Shown: positions 6,350-23,607 of the stretch, piece by piece
Numbering within the stretch: position 1 is the stretch's first letter
How the letters are laid out: each line of letters opens with the position of its first letter
Source of the DNA: Comamonas odontotermitis
GTDB taxonomy: Bacteria; Pseudomonadota; Gammaproteobacteria; Burkholderiales; Burkholderiaceae_C
Direction: 5' to 3'
Assembly (NCBI RefSeq): GCF_014207855.1
Contig: NZ_JACHKZ010000020.1
Span: forward strand, 1 to 64,000
DNA length: 64,000 nt
Notes under the pieces: model-generated
Databases searched by the model: none
What the model was told of the DNA's origin: nothing
The model's input: only the letters and a program-made list of their open reading frames with translations
Position numbers and translations under genes: made by a program

Positions 6350-6350
6350 G

Positions 6351-6857
6351 TCACATCCCTCCTTGATCGACAAGAATGCTTGCGCTGGCCGAGAGTGTGG
6401 CTGGGTTGAGGAGGTCCATGCCGAACATGCGCAGACCAGGTGCCAGCGGCGAAGTTCCGTAGGGAATGGAAAAATCCAGGCGCACCATGCAGCGCTCATT
6501 CACTGCAACGCCGCATGTCAGATCTGCGGGGCAATAATCCAGATTGCCGACCCGGCAGACGCGCACATTGACGGAGCTTTCCGTTGGTGCCAGGGCGGCA
6601 GGTAGCCAGCCGAGCCTTTGAACCACGACTTTCTGCGCAGTTACCAGCCGGGTGTTTGGGGAGGGCTGATAGCGCAGGGCGGCTCGGGCACCGTCCTCTG
6701 CGGCAAACTGCATGGACTCCCGCACTAAAAATGCCAGTCCGTAGCTCACGATGGAGTACAGCAGCATAAAGAACACCGGGAAAATGATGGCCCATTCCAG
6801 CGCATAGACGCCGCGCTCGCGGCCTGGGCGCCGGCCGGTAGCATATGTCTGTTGCAT
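6351..6857 (-). CDS. tadE: TadE-like pseudopilin
   Basis: A 168-residue pilus assembly pseudopilin. The N-terminal RGVYALEWAIIFPVFFMLLY segment has the charged start, Glu and long hydrophobic helix of TadE-family proteins. The C-terminal exported part has four Cys (CRVGNLDYC, LTC, ERC), suggesting disulfides. It lies between the DUF3613 gene (45-base gap) and the tadF-like gene (1-base gap) in the tad operon. Confidence 0.8.
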   Translation of the reverse strand: MQQTYATGRRPGRERGVYALEWAIIFPVFFMLLYSIVSYGLAFLVRESMQFAAEDGARAALRYQPSPNTRLVTAQKVVVQRLGWLPAALAPTESSVNVRVCRVGNLDYCPADLTCGVAVNERCMVRLDFSIPYGTSPLAPGLRMFGMDLLNPATLSASASILVDQGGM

Positions 6858-6902: not shown

Positions 6903-7298
6903 TCACTTCTTGACATCGAGGCCAGTATCGAATTTTTCCGGAATCGCGGTATCAAAGCTCTTGAGATACCGCTGGTAGCTGCGCCGCGCCTGCTCGGCAT
7001 CGATATGGCGGGCTCGCTCTCCATGGGCATTGCGTTGCATGTCCAGCAGGCTGTCAGTGGCATAGCCAACGTCGGTGCGGTACTGGTACCCCGACGAGGT
7101 GGCAACCGCTGACTCGTTCAGTCTGGGTGTTCTGCGGATATCGGCTGGCTGCTCCGTCAGCTCCATCTGCTCTGATGCGGGCGCTGAAGGCGCTGGCGTG
7201 CTGTTTTGGGCCAGGACACTCCCAGTAGCCAATATCAGCCCCAATATGGGAGCAGTTGGCAGGAGACGGGTGCTGTGGGGCAGGAGTGGAGCGGACAT
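6903..7298 (-). CDS. DUF3613 periplasmic protein of the tad locus
   Basis: A 131-residue protein with an N-terminal signal peptide ending near VLAQ and a C-terminal segment typical of DUF3613: TDSLLDMQRNAHG followed by SYQRYLKSFDTAIPE. DUF3613 proteins occur in betaproteobacterial tad loci, usually between tadD and tadE as here; their function is unknown. It starts 12 bases after the tadD stop. The middle (about residues 30-70) is Ala/Pro/Ser-rich and looks disordered. Confidence 0.75.
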   Translation of the reverse strand: MSAPLLPHSTRLLPTAPILGLILATGSVLAQNSTPAPSAPASEQMELTEQPADIRRTPRLNESAVATSSGYQYRTDVGYATDSLLDMQRNAHGERARHIDAEQARRSYQRYLKSFDTAIPEKFDTGLDVKK

Positions 7299-7310
7299 GG
7301 CTTATGTTCC

Positions 7311-8180
7311 TCAGGGTTGCTTTTCTACAGCCGCGCTGGCGGTTGCCTGTGGGGTTGCGGCCATTGCCTGGCCTGATTGCTGAAGTGCATGGGGCTGCTT
7401 GGCCATCGCCGATTGCACCGTAGCCAACTGCTGTTGCAGGGTCTGGATGGATGTCGCATTCACAAGTGCAGGAATGTTTTTGGCCTGCGGCTGCTGCAGG
7501 CGCTGCAGCAATTGCGAGGCCCGGTCATGTGCTCCGGCCGCCAGCAGGTACAAGGCCAGGTTCAACTGGACGCGCGCATTGCTGGGCGCCAGCTGCGCGG
7601 CCTGCATGATGGGGAGTTGCGCCTGGGGCAACTGGCCCGCCAGCATGTGGGCGTAGGCCAGATCGCTCAGCGCATCGGCATCAATGGGGTTGAGTGCACG
7701 TGCCTGCTCCAGTTGCGTGATGGCCTCGGGCAATTGCCCCTGGCTGGCATGCAGCAGACCCAAGCCACGGCGAGCCCGGGCTACCATGCTGGCATCCGCA
7801 TGGCTGAGCAGGCTTTCGTAAGTGCTTTGAGCCTGGGGCCATTGGTTGGTGTTGCGCAAGGCATCTGCCTTGAGCAAGCGCAGCTGGGGTGTGGCGCCAT
7901 ACTGCCGCTCAAAGGCGTCGGTGTGCGCCAGTGACGCATACCATTGGTTCGCCTGCTGCATCTGTGCAATCAGATTCAGATAGGTTTGCTGCGAATCGAC
8001 CTGTGTCGATTGTTCCGCCTTTTCCAATTGCTGTTGTGCCTGTGCTGCGGTGCCTGCCTCAGCCACGCCATAGCCTTGGGGAGGTTTGGAGGCACAGCCC
8101 GTCAACAGCAAGAGGCCATAGCAAAGCGCAAGGGCGCGAGGCAGAGCACGGTAGTGATGGGGTTTGCGGTAGTGCAGCAT
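7311..8180 (-). CDS. tadD: TadD, TPR-repeat pilus assembly lipoprotein
   Basis: A 289-residue lipoprotein: signal peptide with lipobox LLTGC (Cys at about 29) and four or more tetratricopeptide-like repeats between about 95 and 225. TadD proteins are outer-membrane pilotins or scaffolds that help secretin and pilus assembly. The ATG follows the tadC stop with no gap (TAAATG), so coupled translation is likely. The C-terminal 60 residues are Gln/Ala-rich and low in complexity. Confidence 0.83.
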   Translation of the reverse strand: MLHYRKPHHYRALPRALALCYGLLLLTGCASKPPQGYGVAEAGTAAQAQQQLEKAEQSTQVDSQQTYLNLIAQMQQANQWYASLAHTDAFERQYGATPQLRLLKADALRNTNQWPQAQSTYESLLSHADASMVARARRGLGLLHASQGQLPEAITQLEQARALNPIDADALSDLAYAHMLAGQLPQAQLPIMQAAQLAPSNARVQLNLALYLLAAGAHDRASQLLQRLQQPQAKNIPALVNATSIQTLQQQLATVQSAMAKQPHALQQSGQAMAATPQATASAAVEKQP

Positions 8181-9167
8181 TTATCGGCCTCCCATGGCGG
8201 ACAGTGAGCGGATGACCGCCGTAAAACCCGGCCCGGCGGTGATGACGAGAAGTGCCGGCAGCAATGTGAGAACCATCACCCCCGTCATCTTGACGGTGAT
8301 GGTTCCAATCTTCTCCTTGAAGCTGGCCTGGCGTTTTTCGCGCAGCCGGATGCTGAATTCCTTGAGAGGCTCCTGTACAGCCCCGCCGTGCCGGTCTACC
8401 TGCACCAGCAAATTGACGACGGCATTCATGTCGTCATCGGCACCCAGGTAGGACAGGCGCTGCAAGGATTGCTCTCGGGTACGGCCGGAGTTATACAGAC
8501 GGTTTGCCAGCGTCAGCTCCGTGCTGATGACGCGCAGCACACTGCCAAATTCAGAGGCGAGGATCTGCAGGCTCTGATCGATGCTGAGCCCCACACCTTG
8601 CAGCAGGCGCAGCAGATCCACAAACAGGGGCAGCTCTTCTACCACTTGCGCGCGCCGCTTGGCTGCCTTGGAGCGGACGATCCATTTGGGCAGCATGATG
8701 CCCAGTGCAAACGGGATGAAGCCTACCAGCAGCGCTTTGAGACCTGAGGGCTGCAGAATCAAAAGGGCGAGTGCAGGCAGGCAGACGGCGAGTACGGCGC
8801 GGCTCACGATATAAAGAAGACCTCCGCGCGGAAGATCAAACCCTGCCTGGTCCAGCAATTTGCGGTCTTCGTCAGCCAGCAGCGCTTTGGCGATGCCCGT
8901 CTCCAGCCATGCAGGAGGGCGGATGCTGTCGGCTACGGAGGCTGCCTCATTGCCAGGCTTGCTGCCGGGCGCTGGCGTCGTGCCCAGTCCAGGGATGGGG
9001 AATGGCGGGGTGCCTGCAACATTGGTTTCGCGTGTCTGCAGGATTTTTTCTACCTGGGCTTGGGCCTGGGATGCGCGGCGAACGCGCCACAACAGCCCTG
9101 CCGCCATCAGTCCAATGGCAATGGAAGCGAATACCAGGCTCATGATCCACAGCTGTTGCGGGGTCAT
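8181..9167 (-). CDS. tadC: TadC, inner-membrane platform protein (type II secretion F family)
   Basis: A 328-residue integral membrane protein with a T2SSF domain (about 170-300) and membrane helices near the N-terminus, around 120-160 and at the C-terminus. With TadB it forms the inner-membrane platform on which the CpaF ATPase drives Flp pilus assembly. About residues 45-80 form a Pro/Gly/Ala-rich linker. It starts 85 bases after tadB and abuts tadD. Confidence 0.88.
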   Translation of the reverse strand: MTPQQLWIMSLVFASIAIGLMAAGLLWRVRRASQAQAQVEKILQTRETNVAGTPPFPIPGLGTTPAPGSKPGNEAASVADSIRPPAWLETGIAKALLADEDRKLLDQAGFDLPRGGLLYIVSRAVLAVCLPALALLILQPSGLKALLVGFIPFALGIMLPKWIVRSKAAKRRAQVVEELPLFVDLLRLLQGVGLSIDQSLQILASEFGSVLRVISTELTLANRLYNSGRTREQSLQRLSYLGADDDMNAVVNLLVQVDRHGGAVQEPLKEFSIRLREKRQASFKEKIGTITVKMTGVMVLTLLPALLVITAGPGFTAVIRSLSAMGGR

Positions 9168-10221: not shown

Positions 10222-11534
10222 CGCATGCCCCCTGTCTGCTGCTGAGCACGCCACCAGCTCAAGAGCTTGGGCGAGTGGGGCGAGATGCCCATTGATGTCC
10301 AGTTGTCGATTTCCTGGCCGTCCGCACCTATCTGTGGCTCATAGCGGTACAGCTCCTGCATGGAAATGACGTTGTCGGTCATGCCCGTCACTTCGGTCAG
10401 AGAGAGCAGGCGGCGCCTGCCGTTGGACAGGCGACCGATCTGGACAATGAAATCCACCGCATTGGCAATCTGTCGGCGCAGGCTCACTTCACTGCCCTGG
10501 AATCCTGCAAACCCTGCCAGCATCTCGGCGCGGTACAGGCACTCGCGGGGCGAGCTTGCATGGATCGTACCCATTGAGCCGTCATGGCCGGTATTCATGG
10601 CCTGCAATAGTTCCAGCACTTCGCCACTGCGCACTTCGCCAACAATGATGCGGTCGGGGCGCATGCGCAGGCTGTTGATCAGCAGATCGCGGATGCTGAC
10701 GTGGCCGCTGCCGTCGAAGCTGCCGGGGCGGCTCTCCAGCCTGACGACATGGGTGTGGTTGAGAGAGAGCTCGGCGGTGTCCTCGATGGTCACGATCCGT
10801 TCGCTGCTGGGGATGAAGTGAGCAAGCGCATTGAGCAGCGAAGTCTTGCCAGAGCTGGTACCGCCACTCACCAGAATATTGCAGCGTGCCTGCACTGCCA
10901 TCTCCAGAATGCGGCAGATGTCTTCGTTGAAGGTGCCCAGGCGCACCAGTTCTTTGGGTGTGAGCGGGTCCTTGCGAAATTTTCGGATCGACACCGAGGG
11001 CCCGTCGATAGCCAAGGGCGCAATGATGACGTTGATACGGCCGCCTTCGGGCAGGCGCGCATCCACCATGGGGCTGGATTCGTCCAACCTGCGGCCCAGG
11101 GGTGCCAGAATGCGGCGCACAATGCGCAACACATGCTCGTCGTCCTTGAAGTGCGAGGGCTCGCGTTGCAAAACACCGCCGCGCGATACATATACCACTT
11201 CGGACCCGTTGATGAGGATGTCCTCCACTCGTGGGTCTTCCAGCAGCGGCTGCAAGGGCCCCAGTCCAGTGAGCTCGCGTGTCAATGCATGAGCCACCAA
11301 CTGCGCTTCTGCCTCATTGACCGGCACTGCGTGCAAGCGGATGTAGCTGTCGAGCTCCAGCGTCACGAACTGCGCTATTGCCGCCTGCGACCAGCGGCCA
11401 AACTCGGCTCCCAGCTCCTCGATGCGGCTGAGCAGGTGCTCGTAGGCACTGTTTTTCAGGTCGGCAAACAGGGCGCTGCGCTCAAACTCGCTGACGGCCG
11501 CCGGTGCTACAGGGGGAAATGTAGTGGTTGTCAT
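10218..11534 (-). CDS. cpaF: CpaF/TadA, pilus assembly ATPase
   Basis: A 438-residue type IV secretion/pilus ATPase that powers Flp pilus assembly on the cytoplasmic face. Walker A is GGTSSGKT (224-231). Further C-terminal are the His-box region around [11 protein letters not shown] and the conserved [16 protein letters not shown] and [14 protein letters not shown] motifs. The N-terminal 100 residues match the CpaF/TadA N-domain. The start lies 7 bases after the cpaE stop and the end overlaps tadB. All ATPase motifs look intact. Confidence 0.93.
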
Positions 11535-11541
11535 GGGCGGC

Positions 11542-13026
11542 TCAATGTTTTTTCAGACGTTGCAGCCAACCAGACCAGGGGCTGGCTGGGACGAGGGCAT
11601 AGGGCGCTGCCGCTGGGTGGTGTGTGGCCAGCAGTTGGCGCAGCAAGCCATCGAGCGCCTGCACATAGGGCTCGCGCTTGGGTTGCAGTGGCAGCAGGGC
11701 TCCCAGATTGACAACTTGGGCCAATTCGCGCCGCCGCTCTGGAATGACCCCCAGCAGGGGCAGTTGCAGTTGCTTGGACATTTGCTGCGCGCTTAGCTCC
11801 AAGCGGGGGTCGTGCCGGCTCACCACCAATTGCAGCCGGTCGCGGTCAATCTGGTGGGCTTCGAGCTGCTGGAGCAACTCGGTAGTCCAGACGACGCTGG
11901 CGACGCTCTGGTCGCACAGAATCCAGATATCGCTGGCACTGGGCAGCAGCTCCAATGTCAGTTGCAGTGACGCTGCAGCGCCCAGGTCGAGCACAATATG
12001 TTCAAAATACTGACCAAGGCGTGAGAGCAGCGCGTCGACATCCGCCGCTGCCAGGGGTTGAATCGGGCGTGGCTGCGTCAGCAGGCGCAGGCCACTGCCG
12101 TGGCGGGCCAATGCGCTTTGGGCCATGCGTCTGTCCATACGCCGATGCTGGCTGACGGCATCACCAAAACTGAATTCGCCCGGGGTGTTGAGATAGATGG
12201 CGCAGTCCCCACCCGGGGTGCCCATCTCCATCAGCAGGCAGGACAGGTTTTCTGCGTCGTCGCCGTGCAGGCCATTGGCGGTTGTATGAGAGGCCAGGCG
12301 CTGCTGCAAATACCACGCCAGATGGCTGGCTGCCAGGCTGCAGCCCAGTCCAGCGCGGGCAGACAGCAGGGCGGTGACGGGTGCCTTGTGGCGACTGGGT
12401 TCTGCCACAGGCGGCTGGCTGAGAAAGTGTGCAATGGTTTGCTGGGCGCTGTCGAGCGGGCCGTCCATGTCCAGAAAATCCTGCACGCCGCACCGCAGTG
12501 CGGCAAGCATGCATTGCGGGTCGTTGCTGTGGCCCAGTGCCACACGGGGAATATGGGGGAACACGGTTTGCAGCTGCGTCGCCATGGCCACTGCGGGGTC
12601 CAGGGCACCAGGAATGAACTGAATCAATATGGCCTGGGGCTGCTGGCGGTGCACCGCATCAAAGAGATTGTCCTGAAAGCGCATGCCATACAGCTCCGCG
12701 CCATTGAGCACTTGATGCATCCAGGTGTGCACCAATGCGCCATCGCTGCCATTGCCGTGTACCAATACCAGCGGCACCCGCCGCAGCGGCTCCACTGGAG
12801 GCGCTGGCGCGGTCAGCGCAGAGTCTTGCTGCGTATCTACCGAGCCGCCTGGAGATGTCGTTCCTATCGAGGAGAAGTGCTCCGGGTTGCTTCGCAGGAA
12901 GGGCATGGAAACGACATCTGCCCCCGCGTCTGGTTGCGCGGGTGGCCGCACGGACAGCAGATCAGCCAGTGATGGTGTCGCCGCAGGTGCTGCAGCTGGT
13001 GTGGGGGCAAGGGATTCGCTGTTCAT
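11542..13026 (-). CDS. cpaE: CpaE/TadZ, pilus localisation ParA/MinD-like protein
   Basis: A 494-residue protein with a receiver-like N-terminal half and a MinD/ParA-like C-terminal half. CpaE/TadZ places the Tad apparatus at the pole and recruits CpaF. The expected deviant Walker A loop reads SARAGLGCSLAASHLA: both lysines of KGGxGKT are missing, so nucleotide hydrolysis is doubtful. Downstream structure is kept (HIVLDLGAAASLQLTLEL; WILCDQSVASVVWT). Start: ATG at 13026, 4 bases after the cpaC stop; the upstream 13098 start would lie inside cpaC. The first 95 residues are Pro/Ala-rich and look disordered. Confidence 0.83.
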   Translation of the reverse strand: MNSESLAPTPAAAPAATPSLADLLSVRPPAQPDAGADVVSMPFLRSNPEHFSSIGTTSPGGSVDTQQDSALTAPAPPVEPLRRVPLVLVHGNGSDGALVHTWMHQVLNGAELYGMRFQDNLFDAVHRQQPQAILIQFIPGALDPAVAMATQLQTVFPHIPRVALGHSNDPQCMLAALRCGVQDFLDMDGPLDSAQQTIAHFLSQPPVAEPSRHKAPVTALLSARAGLGCSLAASHLAWYLQQRLASHTTANGLHGDDAENLSCLLMEMGTPGGDCAIYLNTPGEFSFGDAVSQHRRMDRRMAQSALARHGSGLRLLTQPRPIQPLAAADVDALLSRLGQYFEHIVLDLGAAASLQLTLELLPSASDIWILCDQSVASVVWTTELLQQLEAHQIDRDRLQLVVSRHDPRLELSAQQMSKQLQLPLLGVIPERRRELAQVVNLGALLPLQPKREPYVQALDGLLRQLLATHHPAAAPYALVPASPWSGWLQRLKKH

Positions 13027-13030: not shown

Positions 13031-14485
13031 TCAGTACGAAAAGCCTGGCAAAGCTGCGCTACCGGGAGGTGTGCCCAGCATGTAAGGAGCCCATACATTG
13101 CGGGCGTTGCGCTGCTCGGAGCTGGCGCCAGGCAGCATCGCTTCCAGGTTGGTGTTGGCGGGCAGTGGCTGCACGAGCCGCGGCGTGACGATGATCACGA
13201 GCTCTGTCTCGTCTTGCGTGTAATTGAGATTCTTGAAGAAGGTGCCCAGGATGGGCAGATCGCCCAGCAGCGGCACTTTGCTGACGCTGGACATGGTGTT
13301 GCGGCTGACGAGGCCGCCAATGACGAAGCTCTCTCCGTCGGCCAACTCCACCATGGTGTCTGCACGGCGGGTGCGTAGCGCGGGTACCGTGATGCCGCTG
13401 ATGGTGACGCCATTGGTGTAATCCAGATCACTGGCCTCTGGCGCCACCTTCAATGCAATGCGCTCATCGGACAGGATGGTGGGCGTGAGCTGCAGCTTGA
13501 CGCCGAACTCCTTGTACTGGATGGAGATGTTGTTGCTGGCGCTGCTGGGCACCGGAATCGGAATTTCTCCGCCTGCCAGAAAGCTTGCGCTCTGACCGGT
13601 GTGAGCCACGAGCGTGGGCTTGGCCAATACGCGGGCCAGGCCATTGCCTTCGAGAAAACCCAGCTGCGCGGTAATGCCCGCACCACTGAACGCCCTGCCA
13701 AAGCCCAGCACCAGGTTCATGGCGCTGGCGATGGCCGATGTCCCGCCCGACCCCGATCCAGATTCGGAGCCAGAGCCGCCTGTGCTGCCTGAGCCGGTAC
13801 CACCGCCAGAGCTGCCATTGTTGCCACCACCGCTTCCGCTGCCCGGGGTGAAGACGCCAAATTGGAACCCATGGTTATTGGGACCACCACTTTGCAGGTT
13901 GACGCCTGCGCGGCGCAGCGCGTTTTTCTTGAACTCCACCACCTGTACATCTACTTGTACGGTGTTGCTGGCCACCTCAATCTGTGACCGATCTTCCAGC
14001 ACCGTTCCCTTGGCGGCACCGGAGCTGGCAAGGGCTACGGCATGGGCGTGCTCCGGCAAGCTGGAGAGGCGGCGTTCAAGCAACAGGTGCGGGTTGTTGA
14101 CACGCACCAGCCAATGCTGTGCTTCGCCCTTGACTGGCCAGACAACAAGGGTGGTCTGACCAGGGGATTTGGGTGTCAGCAGCAATTGGGCTGCGTTTTT
14201 GGTGGCAGGGCTGCTCAGATCGCGCAGCACTTTGGCGTCGAGCACATTGGGGTCGCCCACGGCAATACGCGCCACGGCAGTGCTGTGGGGCAGCAACTGC
14301 TGTCTGCCCACCGTCAACTCCAGCGGCGTTGCCTTGTCCCGTTGCGCATCGTATGGAGCGTTGTCGCTGCGTACGGTCTCAGCCGAGGGCAATTGTGCCG
14401 CCACGGGCAGAGCCAGGCTGGCAAGACTTGCACCAAACAGGCTGGTGATCAGATGAAGCGTTGCAGTGTGCGTAGTAGGTGTCAT
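13031..14485 (-). CDS. cpaC: CpaC/RcpA, outer-membrane secretin of the Tad pilus
   Basis: A 484-residue secretin forming the outer-membrane channel for Flp pili. The signal peptide ends near residue 30 (LPVAA). An N-terminal pilus/secretin domain (about 50-130) is followed by the secretin core with the signature VPLLGDLPILGTFFK near residue 405. Residues 215-250 are almost pure Gly/Ser/Thr (GSGSGGGNNGSSGGGTGSGS and onward), an insert between secretin subdomains that is longer than usual. A 110-base gap separates it from cpaB. No cpaD gene follows; cpaE comes next. Confidence 0.9.
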   Translation of the reverse strand: MTPTTHTATLHLITSLFGASLASLALPVAAQLPSAETVRSDNAPYDAQRDKATPLELTVGRQQLLPHSTAVARIAVGDPNVLDAKVLRDLSSPATKNAAQLLLTPKSPGQTTLVVWPVKGEAQHWLVRVNNPHLLLERRLSSLPEHAHAVALASSGAAKGTVLEDRSQIEVASNTVQVDVQVVEFKKNALRRAGVNLQSGGPNNHGFQFGVFTPGSGSGGGNNGSSGGGTGSGSTGGSGSESGSGSGGTSAIASAMNLVLGFGRAFSGAGITAQLGFLEGNGLARVLAKPTLVAHTGQSASFLAGGEIPIPVPSSASNNISIQYKEFGVKLQLTPTILSDERIALKVAPEASDLDYTNGVTISGITVPALRTRRADTMVELADGESFVIGGLVSRNTMSSVSKVPLLGDLPILGTFFKNLNYTQDETELVIIVTPRLVQPLPANTNLEAMLPGASSEQRNARNVWAPYMLGTPPGSAALPGFSY

Positions 14486-14595
14486 ATTGCTGGCCTCCAG
14501 CCTTAGGCAATGCGGGTTTTATTGTTTTCATTCACTATCAGACAAATAGCTGCTTGCGCTTTATAGGTAGGCAATAGCGGCATGTTTCCTCCCAA

Positions 14596-15621
14596 TCAAT
14601 AGCTCATGGTCTGCACCGAAGCGCCTTGGTAGACTTCGACGGTCTGTGTGCGCAGGGAAGGTGCCGGGGATGTTCCCGCTCCTGAATACGGGGGCGGGGG
14701 AGTGACCAGGGGCGTTGAGCCCCGAGCATGTTTGGCTGGCGCGCCAACTGCCAGATCCCTGAAGCGCAGGCCCGCAAAAGAGCGGTCTGCCGCCTGCAGC
14801 AGTTCATCTTTTTTCAGCTTGCCCGCTACCGGTTGTAAAACGGTCGGCAGGGCCGCGAACAAGGCTGGATTGGGTACAGAGGTGTCGTCCGGGTGGCGCA
14901 GGGCCAGGGTGAGGTGGCCGTACTTTTCCGCCAGCGTCAGGCGCTCCACATCTTCTAGCGGTACCGCCAGTACGGCTGTATTGGCAGGGGCAGGAGGTGT
15001 GGCGTTTCCGTTGCTGCGGCGCGAGCTGTCGCTGTCTTGCTGGGCCTGGCGCTGAGCAGCAGTGGGAGGCGGATTTTCCACGCTGGCAGCGCCATAGGCC
15101 AGCACGCGGCTACGGGCCATCAGCAGGCGGGTCTGGGTGTCTATGTCTGCCTTGTCGTTCTTGCCGTCGAGGGTAAAGAACACGTCCACAAAATCGCCCG
15201 GACGTACATGGTTGCCAGCGGCCATGGGCTCTTTGACGGCAATGGATACCGCGCGTTGGCCAGGCTCGATCTGCAAAGCCAGGCCGCTGAGCAGATGTTG
15301 CTCGAACAAGGGTGCCTGGGCAGGCAGCGCCACGACCGTGGTTCGGCCCACCAGCGGCGCGGTACTGGAAAAGCTGTTGGGTACAGCCGCTGGCAGCTGT
15401 GCAAGTTGCACATCTTCTGCGGTCAGCCGCTGGCCTGCCGGTACTGCCTTGGCGGCGACCACGACGGCATGGGTCGTGGCCGGTGCGGAGGGGGCCTGCA
15501 CGGTTGGCGTGGCAGGCGCTTGCACGGGGCGGGTGGGTTGGCGGCCCAGCATCCAGGCGGCCACTCCCAGCACAATGGCGAGAACGAGCAGCAAGCCAGC
15601 AAGTATCTTGGTGAGGTTCAT
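14596..15621 (-). CDS. cpaB: CpaB/RcpC, Flp pilus assembly protein
   Basis: A 341-residue protein with an N-terminal membrane helix (ILAGLLLVLAIVLGVAAWML), an SAF-type domain (AVPAGQRLTAEDVQLAQLP) and the RcpC domain with ISIAVKEPMAAGNHVRPGDFVDVFF. CpaB modulates the secretin and the periplasmic passage of the pilus. Start: ATG at 15621 preceded by AGGAG with 9-base spacing. A longer 15735 reading adds a non-membrane extension without a ribosome site. The C-terminal 50 residues are Pro/Thr/Ser-rich. The 174 bases between this gene and tadV hold nothing recognised. Confidence 0.87.
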   Translation of the reverse strand: MNLTKILAGLLLVLAIVLGVAAWMLGRQPTRPVQAPATPTVQAPSAPATTHAVVVAAKAVPAGQRLTAEDVQLAQLPAAVPNSFSSTAPLVGRTTVVALPAQAPLFEQHLLSGLALQIEPGQRAVSIAVKEPMAAGNHVRPGDFVDVFFTLDGKNDKADIDTQTRLLMARSRVLAYGAASVENPPPTAAQRQAQQDSDSSRRSNGNATPPAPANTAVLAVPLEDVERLTLAEKYGHLTLALRHPDDTSVPNPALFAALPTVLQPVAGKLKKDELLQAADRSFAGLRFRDLAVGAPAKHARGSTPLVTPPPPYSGAGTSPAPSLRTQTVEVYQGASVQTMSY

Positions 15622-15795
15622 CGTGTGTGCTCCTGATGGTTTGCTTGTTGTTGGGCCTGGGTTGCCGTGGTGCAGCAGGTGCTTGGATTTGGTACCTGCC
15701 GCGCAGGGTGCGCGCGAGGCTGAGACCAGAGGCAAACACCCGGCGCATTGCGGGCAGGTGGCGGATGCGGTGGAATGGCTGGCATGGAAAAAACC

Positions 15796-16362
15796 TCAGT
15801 TCGCCAGGCTGGGGCCGGTGCGCAGCACCACCCAGATGGCGGCAATCGCCATGTAGCCCGCATACGGAATGCTGCGCTGGATGACGCGCTTGCCGCTGGC
15901 GGTGGTTGTGGGTGATGCAGTGGCTGGCACCATGCTCGCTGCCAGCGGCGCAGGCAGGTGTGCCTGCAGCCAGCCGCCGTAGACGCTGAGCTGCAGACGA
16001 CGCCATGCGAGCACAGCCATGCCATGCAGCCCGGCGAGCAGGCTGCCGCCAAGCCAGATGGCCAGCAGGTAAGGAGAAATGCCAAACCACAGACCCATCA
16101 CAGCGGCAAATTTGACATCGCCAGCTCCCATCCAGCGCAATGCATAGAAGGGCAGCAATATGGCGAACGCCGCCGCAGCGCCAACCAGGCCACTCCAAGG
16201 CTCCACCCAGAACGGCTGCACGCCACTGAACAATGCCACCGTGCCTGTCGCCAGGCCCAGCAGCACCATCCAGTTGCGTACTTTGCGGCTGTGCAGATCC
16301 ATGGCTGCTACGACGGCGAGCCATAGCAGCAGGACGCACGAGAGGAGCCAGGTGGTGGTCAT
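15796..16362 (-). CDS. tadV: TadV/CpaA, A24-family prepilin peptidase
   Basis: A 188-residue polytopic membrane aspartyl protease that cleaves Flp prepilin and the TadE-like pseudopilins. Both catalytic aspartates are visible: AMDLHSRKVRNW near residue 20 and the GxGD motif in MGAGDVKFAAV near 85. It lacks the N-methylase domain of PilD, as is normal for TadV. The C-terminal tail extends beyond the minimal family length, with a last hydrophobic segment AGYMAIAAIWVVL. The ATG overlaps the flp stop (ATGA), so flp and tadV are probably coupled. Confidence 0.88.
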   Translation of the reverse strand: MTTTWLLSCVLLLWLAVVAAMDLHSRKVRNWMVLLGLATGTVALFSGVQPFWVEPWSGLVGAAAAFAILLPFYALRWMGAGDVKFAAVMGLWFGISPYLLAIWLGGSLLAGLHGMAVLAWRRLQLSVYGGWLQAHLPAPLAASMVPATASPTTTASGKRVIQRSIPYAGYMAIAAIWVVLRTGPSLAN

Positions 16363-16583
16363 GGAGTGGTAGGTGCTGCAGCACACGTCGTCGAGGCGTC
16401 TGCCCAGGTTGTGCTCGGTGTCTTGACGATATTGGAGAGTTTGCAGAACATCTCGTTGAGTCCTCCGCCAATGGCGCTGGCACCTGCAATGATTGCCACT
16501 GCGATCAACCCTGCAATCAATCCATACTCAATCGCTGTCGCACCTTCTTCGTCCTTCCAGAAGTTCTTGATGAAGTTCGTCAT
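16359..16583 (-). CDS. flp: Flp/Fap-type pilin
   Basis: A 74-residue Flp prepilin, the major subunit of Tad pili. The leader MTNFIKNFWKDEEG is followed by the Flp motif ATAIEYGLIAGLIAVAIIAG; cleavage is expected after Gly14, giving a mature chain with Glu and Tyr at positions +5 and +6. The C-terminal part is short with two Cys. The start overlaps the 3' end of an upstream remnant ORF by 56 bases. It is the only flp gene seen in the window. Confidence 0.93.
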   Translation of the reverse strand: MTNFIKNFWKDEEGATAIEYGLIAGLIAVAIIAGASAIGGGLNEMFCKLSNIVKTPSTTWADASTTCAAAPTTP

Positions 16584-16893
16584 AGTGGTCTCCAGTTTTC
16601 ACAAGGCCCATGGAGGAAAACAGTGGCTGGCGATGGGCGGACACCAGCCGCTGTACGGGAAAACGCGCTGCTACCAGCGCCAGGGCGCTGGCACGCCGCG
16701 ATGCGGCCTGACGCAGGTCATTGCGGCCTACGGCGCCCAGCTCTGCCCGGCGCTCTTCCACCCGGACGAGCTGGCCGATGATGTCCGCCGATTCGGCAGC
16801 GAGCTGGTTGGCAATGCAGGCCTCCTGCTCATAGAGCTTCAGGCGGGTCTGCAGGCCTGTGATCCATTCTTGGTGGCGGCCAGGCTGGCTCAT
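16528..16893 (-). pseudogene. Coiled-coil ORF, possible remnant of a HlyD-type secretion adaptor
   Basis: A 121-residue ORF. Its first 90 residues are charged and helical with a spacing like the coiled-coil hairpin of HlyD/PrtE adaptors (LQTRLKLYEQEACIANQLAAE ending in ASRRASALALVAARF). It lacks the membrane anchor, lipoyl-like halves and C-terminus of a real adaptor (about 400-450 residues), and its 3' end runs 56 bases into flp. The ATG overlaps the stop of the upstream exporter fragment (ATGA). Read together they look like the remains of an exporter-adaptor operon after internal deletions. The HlyD assignment is by pattern only; a small coupled protein of new function is the alternative. 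Confidence 0.4.
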
Positions 16894-17216
16894 AGCGCGG
16901 CCTCCTGAGCGGCCGTGCCTCGTTCGTCGTAGGTGCTCTGGTGAGGCTGGTGGACTGCCGATGCGGCATGCGGCAGGGGGCGTTCAGGCTGGCTGGGGCC
17001 GCGCGAGACGACGCGGTTGTATACCTGCAGCAAAAAGATAGAGGGCAACAGGCCCAGCAGACTGATGGGCAACGCCAGCCACAACGCCCGCTGTAGATGG
17101 CTGCAGGCGTGCTTGAAGCTGCTGCCAATGGCTTTGGAAAACGGCCCTGCCACGCCAACTGGTGCTGCAGCTGGCGCTGCAGGAACCAGTTTGTGGGGAA
17201 GCAGGAATTCAAGCAT
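16890..17216 (-). pseudogene. N-terminal fragment of a type I secretion ABC exporter
   Basis: A 108-residue ORF containing one hydrophobic segment that matches the first transmembrane helix of LapB/PrtD-type exporters: LALPISLLGLLPSIFLLQ followed by VYNRVVSRG, where the family has MLQVYDRVLxS. Real exporters run 550-700 residues with six helices and a nucleotide-binding domain; here the sequence turns into a Pro/His/Gln-rich tail straight after the first helix. It is probably a truncated gene. If expressed it would be a single-pass inner-membrane peptide. It is the first gene downstream of the AT-rich region and may lead the flp transcript. Confidence 0.5.
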
Positions 17217-17580: not shown

Positions 17581-19056
17581 TTATGCAGCAGCAAAGTGCA
17601 TGGCTGCGCTGATGGTGATGAGCAACTGGCTTGCAATCCGGCAGTCGTTGACCAGTGCATTGCCCGAGCGGGGTGAGAAAAATGCTGCTTGTCTGCGATA
17701 GCCGCCAGCCTGCAGCAAGGCGACCTCAGGCCACACAATGCGTTGGTAGCAGGCTCGAAACAGGGTTTGCATGTTCGCTTTGAACTCTGCCTGCATGCCT
17801 TCGCTCATGAACTGCGGCTGATTTGCGTGCCGTGTGCATTCCATCACTGCAATGGCTGTCCATGGACTGGCTGCGGGGGATGGACGACCACCGTCGTCGG
17901 CGATCAATCGCAGTTGCTGCCAGCTTGCATGCAGCCATTTGCCATCGTCGCTGCCCCTTGCAGCAGGTGGCTGCGGCGACCCGCCGAAAGGCGACTGTTG
18001 CTGGCGCAGGCGCAAGGCCTTGAGGCCCAGCCCACCCCATGGCGGCGTATCACCTGGGAGGGCAGGTGATACGCCGCCCAACTGTTGGGCCAGCAAAGTG
18101 ATCAGGTTGCGGACGGTGGAGCACGCATTGGCTCCGGGGAAGAGCTCCGTGTATCGCAGCAGTACGATTAGACTCATGGCATGCAGCATTTCGCTTGCAT
18201 AGTCATGCAGGCTCCAGCGGCGCATCTGTTCAATCAGGTACACGATGCAGCGGTGGCAGGCCAGGGCACTGAGCTCGTCCTGGGATGGCTCCGCCGGGCT
18301 GCTCTTGTGCGCGAGCAGCAGAGCGTAGGCAATGCCCAGGTGATCCAAGAGTGTTCCGGCTTCGGGCCAGCTACCGTCTTCGCTCTGGCGTTGGGCGATC
18401 AACTGTTTGGTGGATCTATACAGCATGGGCCCCGCGGAGCCATTGCGCAGGTGGGCGGGAGACAGGCGGGGGCGGGGCAATGCAGTCAGTTCACCATGTT
18501 GGTCGAGATACACACCCTCCAGCAATAGCTGCCAGCGGGCATGGGTGGCACCATGCACCGGATCGGACAGGCTTCGTACGCCAGCTAGCGTGCGCGATGT
18601 GTTGGTGCCCAGAACCGAGAGCAGTTCCGTGTCTTCCAATTCATCGTCCGCCAATGCCCAGGTGCGGGTGGGATCGGTGGAGCGCAATTGGCCCATTGCG
18701 GTGGTTGCTGGCTGGATGCCGCAGGCCCAGTCAATGCGCAGCTCCACTCCGCTGGCGTTGTGGGCCCATGCCCACTGGCGCACGCGCGTGGCGCCTTCCC
18801 GCCAGGCGGCGTGCACGGTGACACGCCGGATGCTGAAGCTGGTGACAGGCAGATCTTCTGCTGCAACGGTAAAGAACAGCACACAGCAGGCGTATGGATC
18901 CGGAAGTGACACCACATGCTGCGCCACGAACCGAAAAGCCAGATCCAGCTGCTGCGCGAGATCGATCGATTCGGCGCTCGGCTCATATTGTTCACCGACG
19001 CTCATGGGCATCGGCGTGGGCGGTGCGAAGCAACTGGAGAGCGATGCGTTCATCAT
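17581..19056 (-). CDS. Protein of unknown function with QW-like toroid motifs
   Basis: A 491-residue soluble-looking protein that I do not recognise. No signal peptide or clear membrane helix. Two stretches resemble the QW repeats of alpha/alpha-toroid proteins (terpene cyclase or prenyltransferase fold): QRQSEDGSWPEAGTLLDHLG, which fits QxxxGxW, and LRLRQQQSPFGGSP. The middle is rich in Leu, Ala and Cys helices; the first 60 residues are variable-looking. It lies between the 19137-20198 gene and the flp cluster on the same strand, so it may share their transcript. A cyclase function is not claimed. The second Met (19053) is an equally good start. Confidence 0.55.
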   Translation of the reverse strand: MMNASLSSCFAPPTPMPMSVGEQYEPSAESIDLAQQLDLAFRFVAQHVVSLPDPYACCVLFFTVAAEDLPVTSFSIRRVTVHAAWREGATRVRQWAWAHNASGVELRIDWACGIQPATTAMGQLRSTDPTRTWALADDELEDTELLSVLGTNTSRTLAGVRSLSDPVHGATHARWQLLLEGVYLDQHGELTALPRPRLSPAHLRNGSAGPMLYRSTKQLIAQRQSEDGSWPEAGTLLDHLGIAYALLLAHKSSPAEPSQDELSALACHRCIVYLIEQMRRWSLHDYASEMLHAMSLIVLLRYTELFPGANACSTVRNLITLLAQQLGGVSPALPGDTPPWGGLGLKALRLRQQQSPFGGSPQPPAARGSDDGKWLHASWQQLRLIADDGGRPSPAASPWTAIAVMECTRHANQPQFMSEGMQAEFKANMQTLFRACYQRIVWPEVALLQAGGYRRQAAFFSPRSGNALVNDCRIASQLLITISAAMHFAAA

Positions 19057-19087
19057 GGTGTTCTCGCAAGGTGTAGAGATGATTCGG

Positions 19088-19135
19088 GGTTTGCTGCCTC
19101 ACCGCCGCAACCTTGCGGCGTTGAGGCACTCAAAC
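19088..19135 (-). other. Long intercistronic hairpin
   Basis: TGCCTCA-C-CGCCGCAA, loop CC, TTGCGGCG-T-TGAGGCA, extended outward by GTTTG/CAAAC. It lies between two minus-strand genes, 30-odd bases before the 19056 start. It has no T tract on the minus strand, so it is more likely an mRNA processing or attenuation element than a terminator. Confidence 0.55.
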
Positions 19136-19136
19136 C

Positions 19137-20198
19137 TTATAGAGTCAGGCTGTGGTGCTGCAACTCCTGGCTGATTGCTCCGCTAATGCCTACCGTACCC
19201 GCTTCACTAACGTGGCTGCTGATGGCCAGCGAAAGGGGCTGCAGATCTGCCAAGGCCTCTGCTGTACTGGTTGTGACGGTGATAAAGCTGTCCAGCAAGC
19301 CGCCGAGGCCACCGCTGCCCACGCCACTGCCCAGATCGCTGAGACCGGCAATCAACTGGTTGAGTGTGCCAATGACTGGCTCCAGTACCAGGCCGTCGAT
19401 CAGCGTCAGGCCGTTCACCAACTCGGCAAGCACTCCCAAATGGCCACCATCGACGGAGGTCAACCCTTCCAGCAGCCCGGTCACCGCTGCCAGCGTGCCA
19501 GTGCTGGGGTTGAGCAGGGTGTCGATCAGGTTTCCAACGGGGCTTGCCACGGTGCTGCCCAACACGCTGTCCACCAGATCTTGTACCGAAGTGATCAGGC
19601 CATGGTCAGTCGGGTCGGTCGTGCCCGTTGGGGCGGTCATGCCGGGTTCTTCGGTTCCGCCGCCGGGGTTCGTCGGCGTGGAATCGTCACCATCGTTGCC
19701 GCTGTTCAGCAAAGCACCTGCGAGCACGCCACCGCCCACGCCAACCAGACTCGCCAGCAAGAAGTCGCCCAGGACGGCGCAGCCCGCTTCAGTATTGCTA
19801 CCGGCAGCTTCTGCCTTTGCGGTTGGTACAGCGGCGGCATTCGCTGCCGCAGGCACAGTTTCCACGCTGCCTGATGCCGCGGTGAATGCCGCCACGCCTG
19901 CAGCGCCGCTGCTATCGCAATTGCCGAGTGTTGCTTCTGGACTGGCAGCAAGGGGGGCAATTTGCGATTGCCCATCGTTGTTCGTCATAACCGCTTGCGC
20001 ATTGCCGCCCGCCGGAGCCACGATGGTGCCGCCCATCTGCAACTTGCCACCTGTCCGCGCTGCCATTGACTGGCCGCCGCGCACCATGTGCACACCTGCA
20101 GAGACTTGGGTGAGTGGGGCGGACGCCATTTTGGCGCCATCCCCGGATGGGGCGGCATCGTTGGTTGCGCGGTGAATCGATGGGAGGGCCGCGGTCAT
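19137..20198 (-). CDS. Putative surface or secreted protein of unknown function
   Basis: A 353-residue protein, not recognised as a whole. The N-terminal 100 residues alternate G, V and D in a pattern like the FecR/LapA-type N-terminal module (VSAGVHMVRGGQSM, then TNNDGQSQIAPLA). After an Ala-rich stretch comes one hydrophobic Gly-rich segment (LLASLVGVGGGVLAGALL), a Pro/Gly/Thr/Asp linker, and a C-terminal half of Leu/Gly repeats (TGLLEGL, AVTGLLEGLTSV). It has no standard signal peptide, as expected for a type I secretion substrate. The ATG at 20198 has GGGAAA upstream; 20288 would add 30 unlikely residues. It may be the former cargo of the exporter fragments at 16528-17216, which is inference. 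Confidence 0.5.
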   Translation of the reverse strand: MTAALPSIHRATNDAAPSGDGAKMASAPLTQVSAGVHMVRGGQSMAARTGGKLQMGGTIVAPAGGNAQAVMTNNDGQSQIAPLAASPEATLGNCDSSGAAGVAAFTAASGSVETVPAAANAAAVPTAKAEAAGSNTEAGCAVLGDFLLASLVGVGGGVLAGALLNSGNDGDDSTPTNPGGGTEEPGMTAPTGTTDPTDHGLITSVQDLVDSVLGSTVASPVGNLIDTLLNPSTGTLAAVTGLLEGLTSVDGGHLGVLAELVNGLTLIDGLVLEPVIGTLNQLIAGLSDLGSGVGSGGLGGLLDSFITVTTSTAEALADLQPLSLAISSHVSEAGTVGISGAISQELQHHSLTL

Positions 20199-20724
20199 GT
20201 ACTGTTTCCCAAAAATTGGTTTTGTGGGCAGCCCGGAAACGACGCCGGACGGCACATGCCTCGGTGAGCGCAATAGGCGTGCCAACATGGGGAAACGGGC
20301 AGGTCAGAAAACAGAGGTTTCTAACTTATTGATTTTTTTGATGTATTTTTTCTCTTCTTGGTATGCATAACGAATGCATCCGCCATGCTTCTGGCAGTGT
20401 TACGGGCAATGTTACGTAACGTGGACACGGTGGGGCCGTAGCTTTTTTCCTGCCGTCTGGCGCTTGCCAACAATGGCCGGAAAAAGCTGGTGAGCATTGA
20501 TTGGCAGATAGAAATATGCGGTACGCAAACAGCTGCAACCCGTCAGATCGTGGTGAAACCTGGGTGCCACAATTGCTGATACCCATCGGTAAAATGCAAT
20601 GTATCAAAATGTACAATCGACAACCTGGGCCGAGCGCCTGCGCAGGTGGCTCACAATGTCGCTCATTTCGGTGTCTGGCGGCCTTGTCTGCCTTTTCTAG
20701 TCATTGCAGAGAGAACCATTGCTT
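20199..20724. other. Intergenic region between divergent genes
   Basis: About 525 bases between the minus-strand gene ending upstream at 20198 and the plus-strand TPR gene. It contains the palindrome GTTACGTAAC near 20411 preceded by another TGTTACG, and a repeat of ATGCAT near 20365-20380. No convincing promoter or gene was identified. Small ORFs here look spurious. Confidence 0.5.
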
Positions 20725-22017
20725 ATGAAGACTGCGCCTAACATCTTGCTGCCAGTGCATACCTGCCGCCGCCTGCATTGGCACCGCAATTGGGTCGCAC
20801 TATTGCTGGGATGTGGTGTGGCGCTGCACAGCCTGCCTGCATTGGCCGCCCGCGCTGTGGAAGAGGTCACGCAGTTGCTGGAGCAGGGCAAGGCCGATCT
20901 GGCTGCCAAACAGGCAGACAGCCATCTGCAGCTCAATCCAGGCGATGTGGAAATGCGTTTTTTGCGCGGTGTGATTGCCACCGAGCAAAAACAGAATGCG
21001 CAGGCGATCAAGATCTTCTCGGCGCTCACGCGTGAGTATCCCCATATGCCTGAGCCCTACAACAACCTGGCGGTTCTGTATGCGGCCGATGGGCAGGAGC
21101 GCAAGGCTGCGGAGGCTCTGGAGCAGGCAATCCGAACCAACCCCAGTTACTCCACCGCCCATGAAAATCTGGGGGACCTGTATGCACGCATGGCGAGCGA
21201 AGCCTATTCAAAGGCGCTGCAGTTGGATGGTTCGCGGCAGGACATTCGCCCCAAGCTGGCCTTGATCACCCAGATCGTGCCGGGGGCCGCGAGCCGGGGA
21301 AAGACGGTGGTGGCCGATGCAGGAAGCGCTGCGGCGCCAGTGGCGGCCAAAGCCCCCGCCAAGGCCGAAGTTGCGCCTGAGCGCAAGCCGGAGCCTAAGC
21401 CCGAGGCAAAGCCGGAACCCCAGCAACCACCCAAACCACAGCCTGCGGTCAAGCCCGAGCCCGTTGTGGTTGCCAAGGCAGAACCGGCGCCAGTGGCCAA
21501 ACCTGCGGCACCGGCACCGACTCCCGTTGCTGCACCAGCGCCAGCGCCTGTGCCTGTGGCATCAGTATCAGCACCTGTACCGGCGCCGGCTCAACCTGCA
21601 GCAAGCGCCAAGCCCAAGGAAGAGCCTGCAGCACGACCGGCTGCTGTTGCCGAGACCAAGCCAGCTACGCGCCCGAGCGCGGTTGCCGATGTGGAGCGTT
21701 CTGTGCATGCCTGGGCGTCGGCCTGGGAGAAAAAGGACATGACGGCCTATCTGGATGCATACAGCGACAGGTTCCAGCCCGCCGGTGGGGGTAGCCTGGC
21801 GGCATGGAAAGAGGAGCGCCGGGCGCGCATTGTGGGTAAGCAGACGATCGACGTAAAGGTGCAGAACCTGCAGGTCAGCGTTGACGGTGAACAGGCGACG
21901 GCCAGGTTCCGCCAGTACTATGCCGCGGGCTCACTCAAATCCACGACGCGCAAGACCTTGACCCTGCGCCACGAAAAGGGCCAGTGGCATATCGTTCGGG
22001 AAGCAACCGGGGGCTGA
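20725..22017 (+). CDS. TPR-repeat protein with C-terminal NTF2-like (Cds6-type) domain
   Basis: A 430-residue exported protein. The signal peptide ends near LPALAARA. TPR-like repeats span about 45-165 (for example EPYNNLAVLYAADGQERKAAEALEQA). A long Pro/Ala/Lys/Glu linker (about 195-320) leads to an NTF2-like domain (VHAWASAWEKKDMTAYLDAY to QWHIVREATGG) of the kind also found at the end of the next gene. Start: ATG at 20725 with AGAGAG upstream. The linker suggests it spans the periplasm. Sharing a terminal domain with the neighbouring L,D-transpeptidase suggests both act at the cell wall. Confidence 0.75.
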   Translation: MKTAPNILLPVHTCRRLHWHRNWVALLLGCGVALHSLPALAARAVEEVTQLLEQGKADLAAKQADSHLQLNPGDVEMRFLRGVIATEQKQNAQAIKIFSALTREYPHMPEPYNNLAVLYAADGQERKAAEALEQAIRTNPSYSTAHENLGDLYARMASEAYSKALQLDGSRQDIRPKLALITQIVPGAASRGKTVVADAGSAAAPVAAKAPAKAEVAPERKPEPKPEAKPEPQQPPKPQPAVKPEPVVVAKAEPAPVAKPAAPAPTPVAAPAPAPVPVASVSAPVPAPAQPAASAKPKEEPAARPAAVAETKPATRPSAVADVERSVHAWASAWEKKDMTAYLDAYSDRFQPAGGGSLAAWKEERRARIVGKQTIDVKVQNLQVSVDGEQATARFRQYYAAGSLKSTTRKTLTLRHEKGQWHIVREATGG

Positions 22018-22122
22018 TCTTGCGTGGCGACTCGCACCAATAGCTTCTGAGGGATAGGGTGGCGCGGTATCATGCGCAGCGCGCTACCGATGGTTGGGCG
22101 GCGGGACGAGGATTTTTGGGCA

Positions 22123-23607
22123 ATGCCTTTTAGCAAGCAGTTTTGGCGGCCATTGGCCATGGGAGCACTGGCGGTCGCCGCAAGCGGCGCGCTCGGTGTT
22201 GCGTATGCCCAAAAAACGGCGGACAGCAAGGCTGGCAGCGTCGCCCGGAGCCAAGGGGCTGCTGCCAGCGGGCCTGCAAAGAGTTCGTCAGCCTCCAAAG
22301 AGCCGAGGCGTGGCAAAAAGACCAAGGCCACCGAAGCCGAAAAAAGCACAAAAAATACCCAAGATGCCAAAAGCAGCGCAGCACGGGCAGCGGTGCCCGT
22401 GGCTGCCGTCGCACCGGGGGCCGTCGCACCGGGTGTCGCCGCACCGGCTGCCGTCCATGCAAGCGCCGAGGCGCGTTTGTTGAAGGTGATCGATCTGGTT
22501 CAGCAGCAAAAGCTGGATATGGCGCTGCAGGAAGCCTCTCGGCTGACCTTGGATGTGCCACATTTCCAGGCGGCGCAACTGGTGTATGCGGATTTGCTGC
22601 GCTACAAGACTGGCCATGCAGGGGCACTTTCTCCCGCGCCGCTGCCGGAGGTGGTGGCAATGCGGGTCAAACACACCCCACAACCCAGCACGGCGCCTGG
22701 TGCAGACAGCCTGGAGCAGTTGCGCGGCTTGCAGGACGAGATCAAGCGCCGTGTGCAGGGGGCCAATGCCTTGCCGGCTACCGGCAGTATTCCGGCGGAA
22801 TTTCTGGCGCTGGCGCCCTCGGTGCGCCAGGCGATTGCCATTGACGCGAGCAAGTCACGGCTCTACCTGTTTGCCAACGAAGACGGCAAGCTGCGGTTGA
22901 CGGGCGACTATTACGTATCCGTCGGCAAGCTGGGCATGGGCAAGTTTGAGGAGGGCGACCAGCGCACGCCCGAGGGGGTGTATTTCATCGGCAGGCAGAT
23001 TCCTGGCCCCAAACTGCCCGAGTTCTATGGCAAGGGTGCCTTGACGGTGAATTACCCCAACGACTGGGACAAGGCAGTCGGGCGATCAGGCAGTGGTATC
23101 TGGCTGCATGGCACGCCACCAGACCAGTTTGCCCGCCTGCCGCTTGCCAGTGACGGCTGCATGGTGCTCTCCAATACCGATCTGACGCATCTGATGCGAA
23201 CCGTTGGTCGCCTCTCTCCGGTGCTGGTACGTGAACGCCTGCACTGGGTCGCGGCTGCCGACACAGGTATGGGGCGCGAGCGGGATGCCTTTTTCTCCAT
23301 ACTTCACCGCTGGCAGCAGGGCTGGAGCCAAGTAGATGCGCAGGCTGCGCTGTCGCCGCTCTACCAGGCGGAATGGCGAAGCTCGGTTGCTGGCCAGGCC
23401 ATGCAGGAGCGCATGGCAAACGCCTTCAAAGGTGGCGCCGTTTTGCAGGATATATCGGCATTTGCCTGGAAAGATTCCCAAGGCGAGATTCGCATCGCCA
23501 ATTTCCGCCTCAAGGCGAAAAACCAGGCAGAGCCCCTGTCGCTGCGCCAGTATTGGCGCAAGGTGGGCAGCGAGTGGAAGCTGTTTTCGGAAGACACGCA
23601 GAATTGA
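22123..23607 (+). CDS. L,D-transpeptidase (YkuD) with C-terminal NTF2-like domain
   Basis: A 494-residue periplasmic L,D-transpeptidase, which forms 3-3 crosslinks or attaches proteins in peptidoglycan. Signal peptide MPFSKQFWRPLAMGAL to AYAQ; basic/Ala-rich linker to about 120; helical region; YkuD domain about 235-370 with His329 (WLHGTP) and catalytic Cys346 in LASDGCMVLS. The last 110 residues form an NTF2-like domain (GWSQVDAQAALSPLYQAEW to LRQYWRKVGSEWKLF). Such proteins have been called the Cds6 family. The ATG at 22123 begins the signal peptide; 22072 is an in-frame ATG that would mask it. It lies 105 bases after the TPR gene. Confidence 0.85.
   Translation: MPFSKQFWRPLAMGALAVAASGALGVAYAQKTADSKAGSVARSQGAAASGPAKSSSASKEPRRGKKTKATEAEKSTKNTQDAKSSAARAAVPVAAVAPGAVAPGVAAPAAVHASAEARLLKVIDLVQQQKLDMALQEASRLTLDVPHFQAAQLVYADLLRYKTGHAGALSPAPLPEVVAMRVKHTPQPSTAPGADSLEQLRGLQDEIKRRVQGANALPATGSIPAEFLALAPSVRQAIAIDASKSRLYLFANEDGKLRLTGDYYVSVGKLGMGKFEEGDQRTPEGVYFIGRQIPGPKLPEFYGKGALTVNYPNDWDKAVGRSGSGIWLHGTPPDQFARLPLASDGCMVLSNTDLTHLMRTVGRLSPVLVRERLHWVAAADTGMGRERDAFFSILHRWQQGWSQVDAQAALSPLYQAEWRSSVAGQAMQERMANAFKGGAVLQDISAFAWKDSQGEIRIANFRLKAKNQAEPLSLRQYWRKVGSEWKLFSEDTQN

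Follow-up and report, generated by a model that had tools for sequence, protein, structure and literature searches.

What is the function of two adjacent open reading frames (ORFs) of no recognised family that lie beside the tad genes of Comamonas odontotermitis? The ORFs, A and B, are found in a 64,000-nucleotide stretch of DNA (contig NZ_JACHKZ010000020.1, positions 1 to 64,000), referred to below as the window; its genome is designated G000. The window almost certainly holds the relic of an adhesin locus of the type I secretion system (T1SS) next to tad. ORF B is the shortened adhesin, and ORF A belongs to a family of proteins with a predicted toroid fold, encoded in related genomes between the adhesin and its exporter. 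The explanation we prefer, with a probability of roughly 0.6, combines a relic locus in the window with a toroid companion that would act on the adhesin in intact relatives. The two ORFs are as follows.

17581..19056, minus strand: ORF A ("F1"), 491 amino acids (aa), ATG start; predicted alpha/beta N-terminal domain (residues ~28–185) and alpha-toroid (~205–490)
19137..20198, minus strand: ORF B ("F2"), 353 aa, internally shortened adhesin

They are spaced by 81 bases, counted from stop to start. For ORF B an alternative upstream ATG at 20288 gives 383 aa; its homologue in the closest relative begins at the position equivalent to 20198. The original prediction, made from the letters of the sequence alone, described a two-gene cluster in which neither gene belongs to a known family. 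Both statements held: the same-strand ORFs are conserved beyond chance, having homologues in the genus and low ratios of nonsynonymous to synonymous substitution rates (dN/dS), and searches with both proteins gave no Pfam or NCBIfam match up to E = 1.

Decay of the adhesin and exporter genes

The locus of the closest relative, L027, was used as the reference for a deletion map. Six L027 segments (6311–6717, 7012–9071, 11433–12970, 13081–13759, 13831–15172 and 15297–16235) are absent from the window, with the pieces between them retained; together they account for the bulk of the adhesin and almost the entire exporter. Short overlaps of 16, 7, 10 and 2 bases are present at four of the deletion junctions. 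The first two deletions fall within the adhesin gene and preserve its frame, 6311–6717 being a PT-repeat linker and 7012–9071 most of the repeats. The other four removed nearly all of the genes for the ABC protein, the HlyD adaptor and the TolC-type channel. The following pieces of these genes are left in the window.

19606..20198, minus strand: N-terminal domain and hydrophobic segment of ORF B (L027 5727–6310)
19328..19621, minus strand: sole remaining repeat unit of ORF B (matches L027 6718–7011, 7156–7423, 7519–7780 and 7891–8152)
16979..17216, minus strand: relic of the T1SS ABC protein gene, residues 1–73 of 621, open within a 108-aa ORF (16890–17216)
16868..16977, minus strand: relic with the end of the ABC gene and the start of the HlyD gene (L027 12971–13080)
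16793..16863, minus strand: relic of the HlyD adaptor gene (L027 13760–13830)
16679..16802, minus strand: relic of the TolC-type gene (L027 15173–15296)

ORF B is thus an adhesin devoid of its low-complexity linker, the element that comes next after the hydrophobic segment in L027, and of all repeats but one, and it retains in frame both termini of the 1179-aa L027 protein. The parts that align are the N-terminal domain, the Gly-rich hydrophobic segment and one Leu/Gly repeat unit. Two of the features originally ascribed to ORF B, the Gly-rich segment and the Leu/Gly repeat (as a single unit), were therefore recovered; the N-terminal domain looks FecR-like by eye only and has no profile match. 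A Sec-dependent or FecR-signalling role of ORF B was dropped, because the entire protein aligns with T1SS-linked adhesins.

No functional T1SS locus is present in the window, where the ABC, HlyD and TolC-type genes exist as fragments only. In the whole of G000, no T1SS-type HlyD protein scored over the NCBIfam cut-off (best 45.5 vs 208.65 bits; T1SS ABC and TolC genes elsewhere in G000 were not searched for), and a search with the adaptor of the locus returned only the relic. The suggested "secretion relics" downstream of the pair are real and map to the ABC, HlyD and TolC-type genes of L027. Of the proposed former or miniature type I system, the former part stands, given the intact ABC and HlyD genes of relatives and the fragments in the window, while a working miniature does not, the exporter being gutted.

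Between the window and L027, dN/dS amounts to 0.14 in ORF A and to 0.15 in the part of ORF B that aligns; among neighbouring genes it is 0.16 for cpaA and 0.03–0.10 for five others. Accelerated decay of ORF A was considered in view of the long window branch in the tree (0.21 vs 0.029) and rejected, as the relative-rate counts do not support it (12 window-only vs 7 L027-only changes, p 0.36).

Conservation and gene order in Comamonas

A protein search with ORF A was performed in 53 Comamonas genomes, G000 included. Matches were found in 20 genomes, its own among them, the best being G017 with 79% identity over the full length. One region per genome was examined for the 19 other genomes with ORF A. 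The order of a complete locus is adhesin, usually an OmpA-like lipoprotein, toroid protein, ABC protein, HlyD adaptor, TolC channel and tad. The T1SS ABC protein and HlyD adaptor are encoded in all 19 loci and the lipoprotein in 18 (not in L027). An adhesin-family ORF was called in 18 as well, only its Gly-rich end remaining at the contig edge in L034. The tad genes follow downstream in 13 loci, and the six remaining stretches end before that point.

At high score, the HlyD adaptor was found in 20 of the 53 genomes, 19 of which it shares with ORF A. The exceptions are G000, which has the toroid gene and lacks the adaptor, and G048, for which the opposite is true; the co-occurrence gives a Fisher p of 3e-12, uncorrected for kinship. 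Relatives thus carry both genes of the pair beside the ABC protein and HlyD adaptor, so that the pair is conserved; this agrees with the original suggestion that its members could be the cargo and the accessory of a former type I system.

In seven other Comamonas genomes the toroid protein is 963–1102 aa long and bears a MurF-like ligase at the C-terminal end; ORF A is full length without this part. A 19-row tree sets the Mur-bearing Comamonas proteins apart by one branch (94/96) and places the window protein and L027 with the C. koreensis group paralogue "F1a" (100/99). Six genomes of that group (L028–L033) each have a pair of toroid paralogues and an additional TPR gene in the surroundings of the adhesin.

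The genes flanking the relic locus are listed below.

16359..16583, minus strand: flp pilin; the tad genes cpaA, cpaB, cpaC and onward lie at lower coordinates
20704..22017, plus strand: TPR/Cds6_C protein, divergent, a neighbour conserved in Comamonas
22072..23607, plus strand: protein with a YkuD L,D-transpeptidase domain, a conserved neighbour

The TPR/Cds6_C and YkuD genes (20704–23607) are divergent neighbours kept beside the adhesin in Comamonas. Rfam and tRNA scans of the window yielded nothing useful for the locus, and a promoter and terminator scan gave 2 and 4 sites vs shuffled means of 1.7 and 3.4.

Predicted structure of ORF A

A structure model of ORF A was built from 16 sequences, with a mean predicted local distance difference test score (pLDDT) of 70.6. 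It consists of an alpha/beta N-terminal part and a helical part, residues 208–490. The latter aligns with (alpha/alpha)6 toroids, best with a GH76 protein (4boj; Z 12.7, root mean square deviation 5.5 Å over 245 residues, 4% identity), while epimerases, glucoamylases and squalene-hopene cyclase reach Z of about 10. A Foldseek search with the model gave no match at E <= 0.001. Judging from the model, residues ~205–490 are predicted to adopt the (alpha/alpha)6 toroid fold. The stretch that the original prediction read as QW-like, "DGSW", is well conserved, G228 and W230 being nearly invariant in one alignment and W230 alone in another. None of the named toroid families (GH76, AGE epimerase, terpene cyclase) was matched by ORF A in Pfam or NCBIfam. 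A terpene cyclase or prenyltransferase enzyme was rejected as a candidate, the fold alone being in common.

The N-terminal domain is perhaps AMMECR1-like. ORF A itself has no PF01871 (AMMECR1) match; residues 89–191 of a distant relative, L110, match this family weakly (E 0.002, 18.1 bits vs a cut-off of 25), and 1zq7, which we take to be an AMMECR1 protein, stands at Foldseek rank 6 for the ORF A model, weak at E 0.1. A full-length model of L049 had a mean pLDDT of 48.9 and was used for no claim.

The wider toroid family and its modules

The profile of the window group had hits in 16 of the 399 genomes searched within the bacterial family (9 of 141 genera). With A5, a profile of the better conserved core (mean column identity 61%), hits were obtained in 7 of 399 genomes at the level of the order, in 16 of 398 for the phylum and in 8 of 369 for the class; the A5 counts take in the window and up to two previously seen genomes, and the class matches are mostly toroid-only. 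All these counts refer to samples of genomes. Alignment of the window group with the core profile (hhalign: 99.4%, E 5.5e-21, residues 28–331) shows that the two families are homologous. By this homology and by its position beside adhesin and T1SS genes, ORF A is assigned to the family of toroid companions. A first scan of named genomes with ORF A alone and a search of viral contigs with A5 had no useful result. PDB sequence searches found no structurally solved relative (best value 0.069 for A5, nothing for A2). The family is apparently widespread, being present in several families of the phylum, and undescribed. The pair had been singled out as the best candidate for an undescribed system in the window, and the companion family does look undescribed; the wider family with its exchangeable modules was invisible to the reader of the window alone.

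A Mur ligase module was found in 26 proteins scanned or aligned, with an intact P-loop in 21. Four proteins (L080, L083, L114 and L117) combine it with PGA_cap, which the equally long L125 lacks; L080, L081 and L114 stem from one genome. An ATP-grasp module is present in three proteins (L115, L116 and L119). A GT4 module resembling SdgA/SdgB is fused to the toroid in L087 and L113 and encoded by the adjacent gene in L124. Some members of the family have no module at all. The C-terminal part of L042 matches the NCBIfam murF model at 1.2e-23 and PDB 4cvk at 3e-16, and all scored relatives remain under the murF cut-off of 288.6 bits (L042 83.8, L034 74.4, L036 85.8, L088 255.6); ORF A has no MurF module. 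The SdgA/SdgB models of NCBIfam match L113 at 3e-40, L087 at 1e-35 and L124 at 9e-72, again under the cut-offs, the best score being 242.2 bits for L124 vs a cut-off of 800. The core toroids retain many invariant polar residues. Weak Pfam matches to GH127/GH88 are seen in distant relatives of the toroid protein, and weak cyanophycin synthetase matches were obtained as well.

L087:7400–10555 encodes the N-terminal domain and toroid fused to an SdgB-like glycosyltransferase, and no T1SS gene was found in its 20 kb region. Toroid-adjacent genes at L112:6490–7476 and L113:6219–7178 match the MXAN_6640 putative metalloprotease domain under the cut-off. In L083 (14511–15452) and L086 (9906–10844) a gene is located between the toroid and ABC genes, the L083 copy having weak alpha/beta hydrolase matches.

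Partner adhesins and their linkers

In other Comamonadaceae, beyond the 19 loci described above, ABC or HlyD genes were found in 12 of 14 regions (not in L080 and L087). The adhesins were tested for low-complexity linkers, defined as a 60-residue segment with at most four residue kinds, in 40 hand-chosen adhesin rows from toroid loci and 17 rows from toroid-free LapA-type loci of the genus. A linker was present in 27 of the 40 rows vs one of the 17 control rows, some of which are opposite-strand frames; absence from the remaining toroid-locus rows means little, as the adhesin is truncated or masked on several contigs. The single positive control is a Thr-Glu-Ala-Pro run in L126. Linkers lie near the N-terminus wherever that end is present; the window adhesin has none.

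Outside Comamonas the linkers are Asp-Ala or Ser-Asp, mostly Asp-rich, and the partner adhesins of L113 and L124 carry Ser-Asp repeats. Linkers of Comamonas are mostly Pro-Thr-Asn/Asp; taken together with Corticibacter they are mainly Pro/Thr/Asn or Pro/Thr/Glu, some of them Asp-free. We considered Asp as the modified residue and dropped this idea, since Comamonas and Corticibacter linkers can lack it (L042, L056).

Proposed role and alternative explanations

The position of the toroid gene, its co-occurrence with the adaptor and the swapping of modules are suggestive of a step in the cytosol that modifies the adhesin linker. In intact relatives the toroid companion would act in the cytosol before export: the N-terminal domain and toroid may bind or prime the linker, and the attached or adjacent module (MurF-like or ATP-grasp ligase, PGA_cap, SdgA/SdgB-like glycosyltransferase) would then add an amino-acid or sugar group. 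We put the chances of adhesin modification before export being the role of the family at about even. The broader proposal, that an AMMECR1-like/toroid core which recognises low-complexity linkers and bears exchangeable modules forms an undescribed modification system for type I secreted adhesins, by which Gram-negative bacteria would decorate these giant proteins ahead of export and which was lost in the window lineage, is more tentative and falls somewhat short of even odds on the sequence evidence. With the exporter gone in the window lineage, ORF A would be idle and stay as a leftover; it is thus probably jobless in this strain.

A number of observations weigh against this explanation. The closest intact relative, L027, is also without a catalytic module, and motifs under strong conservation in the core toroid are missing from the window family (a loss in Comamonas). 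The Mur P-loop is lost in five of the 26 proteins (L078, L079, L081, L082 and L084). Linker residues differ among groups, and therefore no single target residue is common to them. In the order and phylum searches, T1SS genes were found in only four of 14 regions (L113, L117, L120 and L124), L117 being at a contig edge; three of the four supplied queries, so that they match themselves, and were chosen after an independent blastp match. Among the other ten, L112 and L123 adjoin Asp-Ala repeat proteins, and in L119 and L121 repeat proteins are cut by the contig. G048 provides a natural counterexample: its locus L135 (2254–9698) has the adhesin, a DPTDGP linker, the lipoprotein and the exporter, and the toroid gene is missing between the lipoprotein and ABC genes. 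Therefore the toroid gene is not indispensable. Finally, ORF A is not clearly faster-changing in the window lineage, and decay of ORF A itself is unsupported.

The main rival to modification is a non-enzymatic export companion, which would hold the unfolded linker, keep the adhesin export-competent or dock it to the ABC exporter, the enzymes being secondary. We give it about one chance in four. It accounts for the module-free members that still stand beside an exporter (the window protein, L027, both paralogues of the C. koreensis group, L075, L085, L118, L122 and L124) and for the lost P-loops; however, the core toroids resemble enzymes in their large number of invariant polar residues, the acquisition of different group-transfer and ligase modules on several occasions favours chemistry, and G048 exports, or at least retains, adhesin genes without a toroid gene. 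It is unlikely that the product of the Mur, PGA_cap and ATP-grasp modules is a polymer or small molecule of its own, amide-linked in the manner of poly-gamma-glutamate or cyanophycin and only co-regulated with the adhesin. PGA_cap and Mur-type ligases do belong to polymer pathways, and the weak cyanophycin synthetase matches point the same way, but the toroid gene is located between the adhesin and exporter genes, and the SdgA/SdgB-like module, named adhesin glycosyltransferase in NCBIfam, better fits protein modification.

Two further explanations concern the window itself. The shortened adhesin and the toroid protein might still function together in this strain by another export route: each ORF is open, the frame and C-terminus of the adhesin survived its two deletions, and pairwise dN/dS is low. 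Yet in-frame loss of repeats is common in such genes, dN/dS also averages in the period that preceded the loss, no linker is left and G000 has no T1SS-type HlyD over the cut-off, which makes this possibility slightly less probable still than a separate polymer. That the gaps are draft-assembly errors around repeats is very improbable; the assembly has 68 contigs, and adhesin genes contain repeats and are masked in a number of records, but four of the six gaps affect exporter genes, which are not repetitive, and short stretches are retained between these gaps. What counts against the modification of the adhesin by the toroid companion is, in the end, the module-free members, the lost P-loops, the missing core toroid motifs and L135.

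Discussion

The locus resembles those of giant T1SS adhesins of the LapA/BapA type: a large repeat adhesin without a Sec signal, with an N-terminal domain followed by a hydrophobic or Gly-rich stretch, and adjacent ABC, HlyD and TolC genes in intact relatives. It differs in that the loci of relatives add a toroid protein and a low-complexity linker, and in that the exporter of the window is destroyed. The N-terminal retention module of LapA/LapG-type adhesins has a di-alanine cleavage site; "AAG" occurs in the window and L027 adhesins and is not found in L042 or the other Comamonas adhesins examined by eye. LapG (PF06035) has no match in G000 and is absent from 15 of the 20 genomes with the toroid gene and present in five. 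Membership of the window locus in LapA/LapG systems was rejected after this search, so that of the "LapA-like" character originally suggested only a loose resemblance is left.

ORF A residues 205–490 have the predicted fold of GH76, AGE epimerases, GH127/GH88 and squalene-hopene cyclase, unlike which the window protein has no sequence family match. The C-terminal part of the long relatives is similar to MurF (UDP-MurNAc-tripeptide D-Ala-D-Ala ligase), but their ligase scores far under the murF cut-off and is fused to a toroid, and the window protein lacks it. The GT4 modules of L113, L087 and the toroid-adjacent gene of L124 match the models of staphylococcal SdgA/SdgB best; they differ in scoring under the cut-offs and in accompanying T1SS instead of Sec/sortase, and the window has no such module.

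To our knowledge, T1SS adhesins are treated as unmodified except for Ca2+ binding and proteolysis. In searches of the open-licence PMC literature no paper came up that links Mur ligase, ATP-grasp or AMMECR1 to T1SS adhesins, which is no proof of absence, nor one on glycosyltransferase or serine-aspartate with T1SS or on AMMECR1 with Mur ligase. The available part of an article on Acinetobacter BAP presents giant adhesins with long Ser-Asp tracts and describes no toroid companion or modification genes (PMC4647330); the available text on the T1SS gene cluster of another adhesin contains no such companion (PMC12153261).

The window itself is a decayed locus with an intact, possibly idle toroid companion, and as a natural loss it records in what order the parts of such a locus decay, with the toroid gene still open. 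The companion family is the part most worth following. If the proposed role is true, T1SS adhesins in many Pseudomonadota would have a dedicated modification step with ligases of cell-wall and peptide chemistry. This would bear on how biofilm adhesins acquire charge, stiffness and protease resistance, and would offer a directly testable gene.

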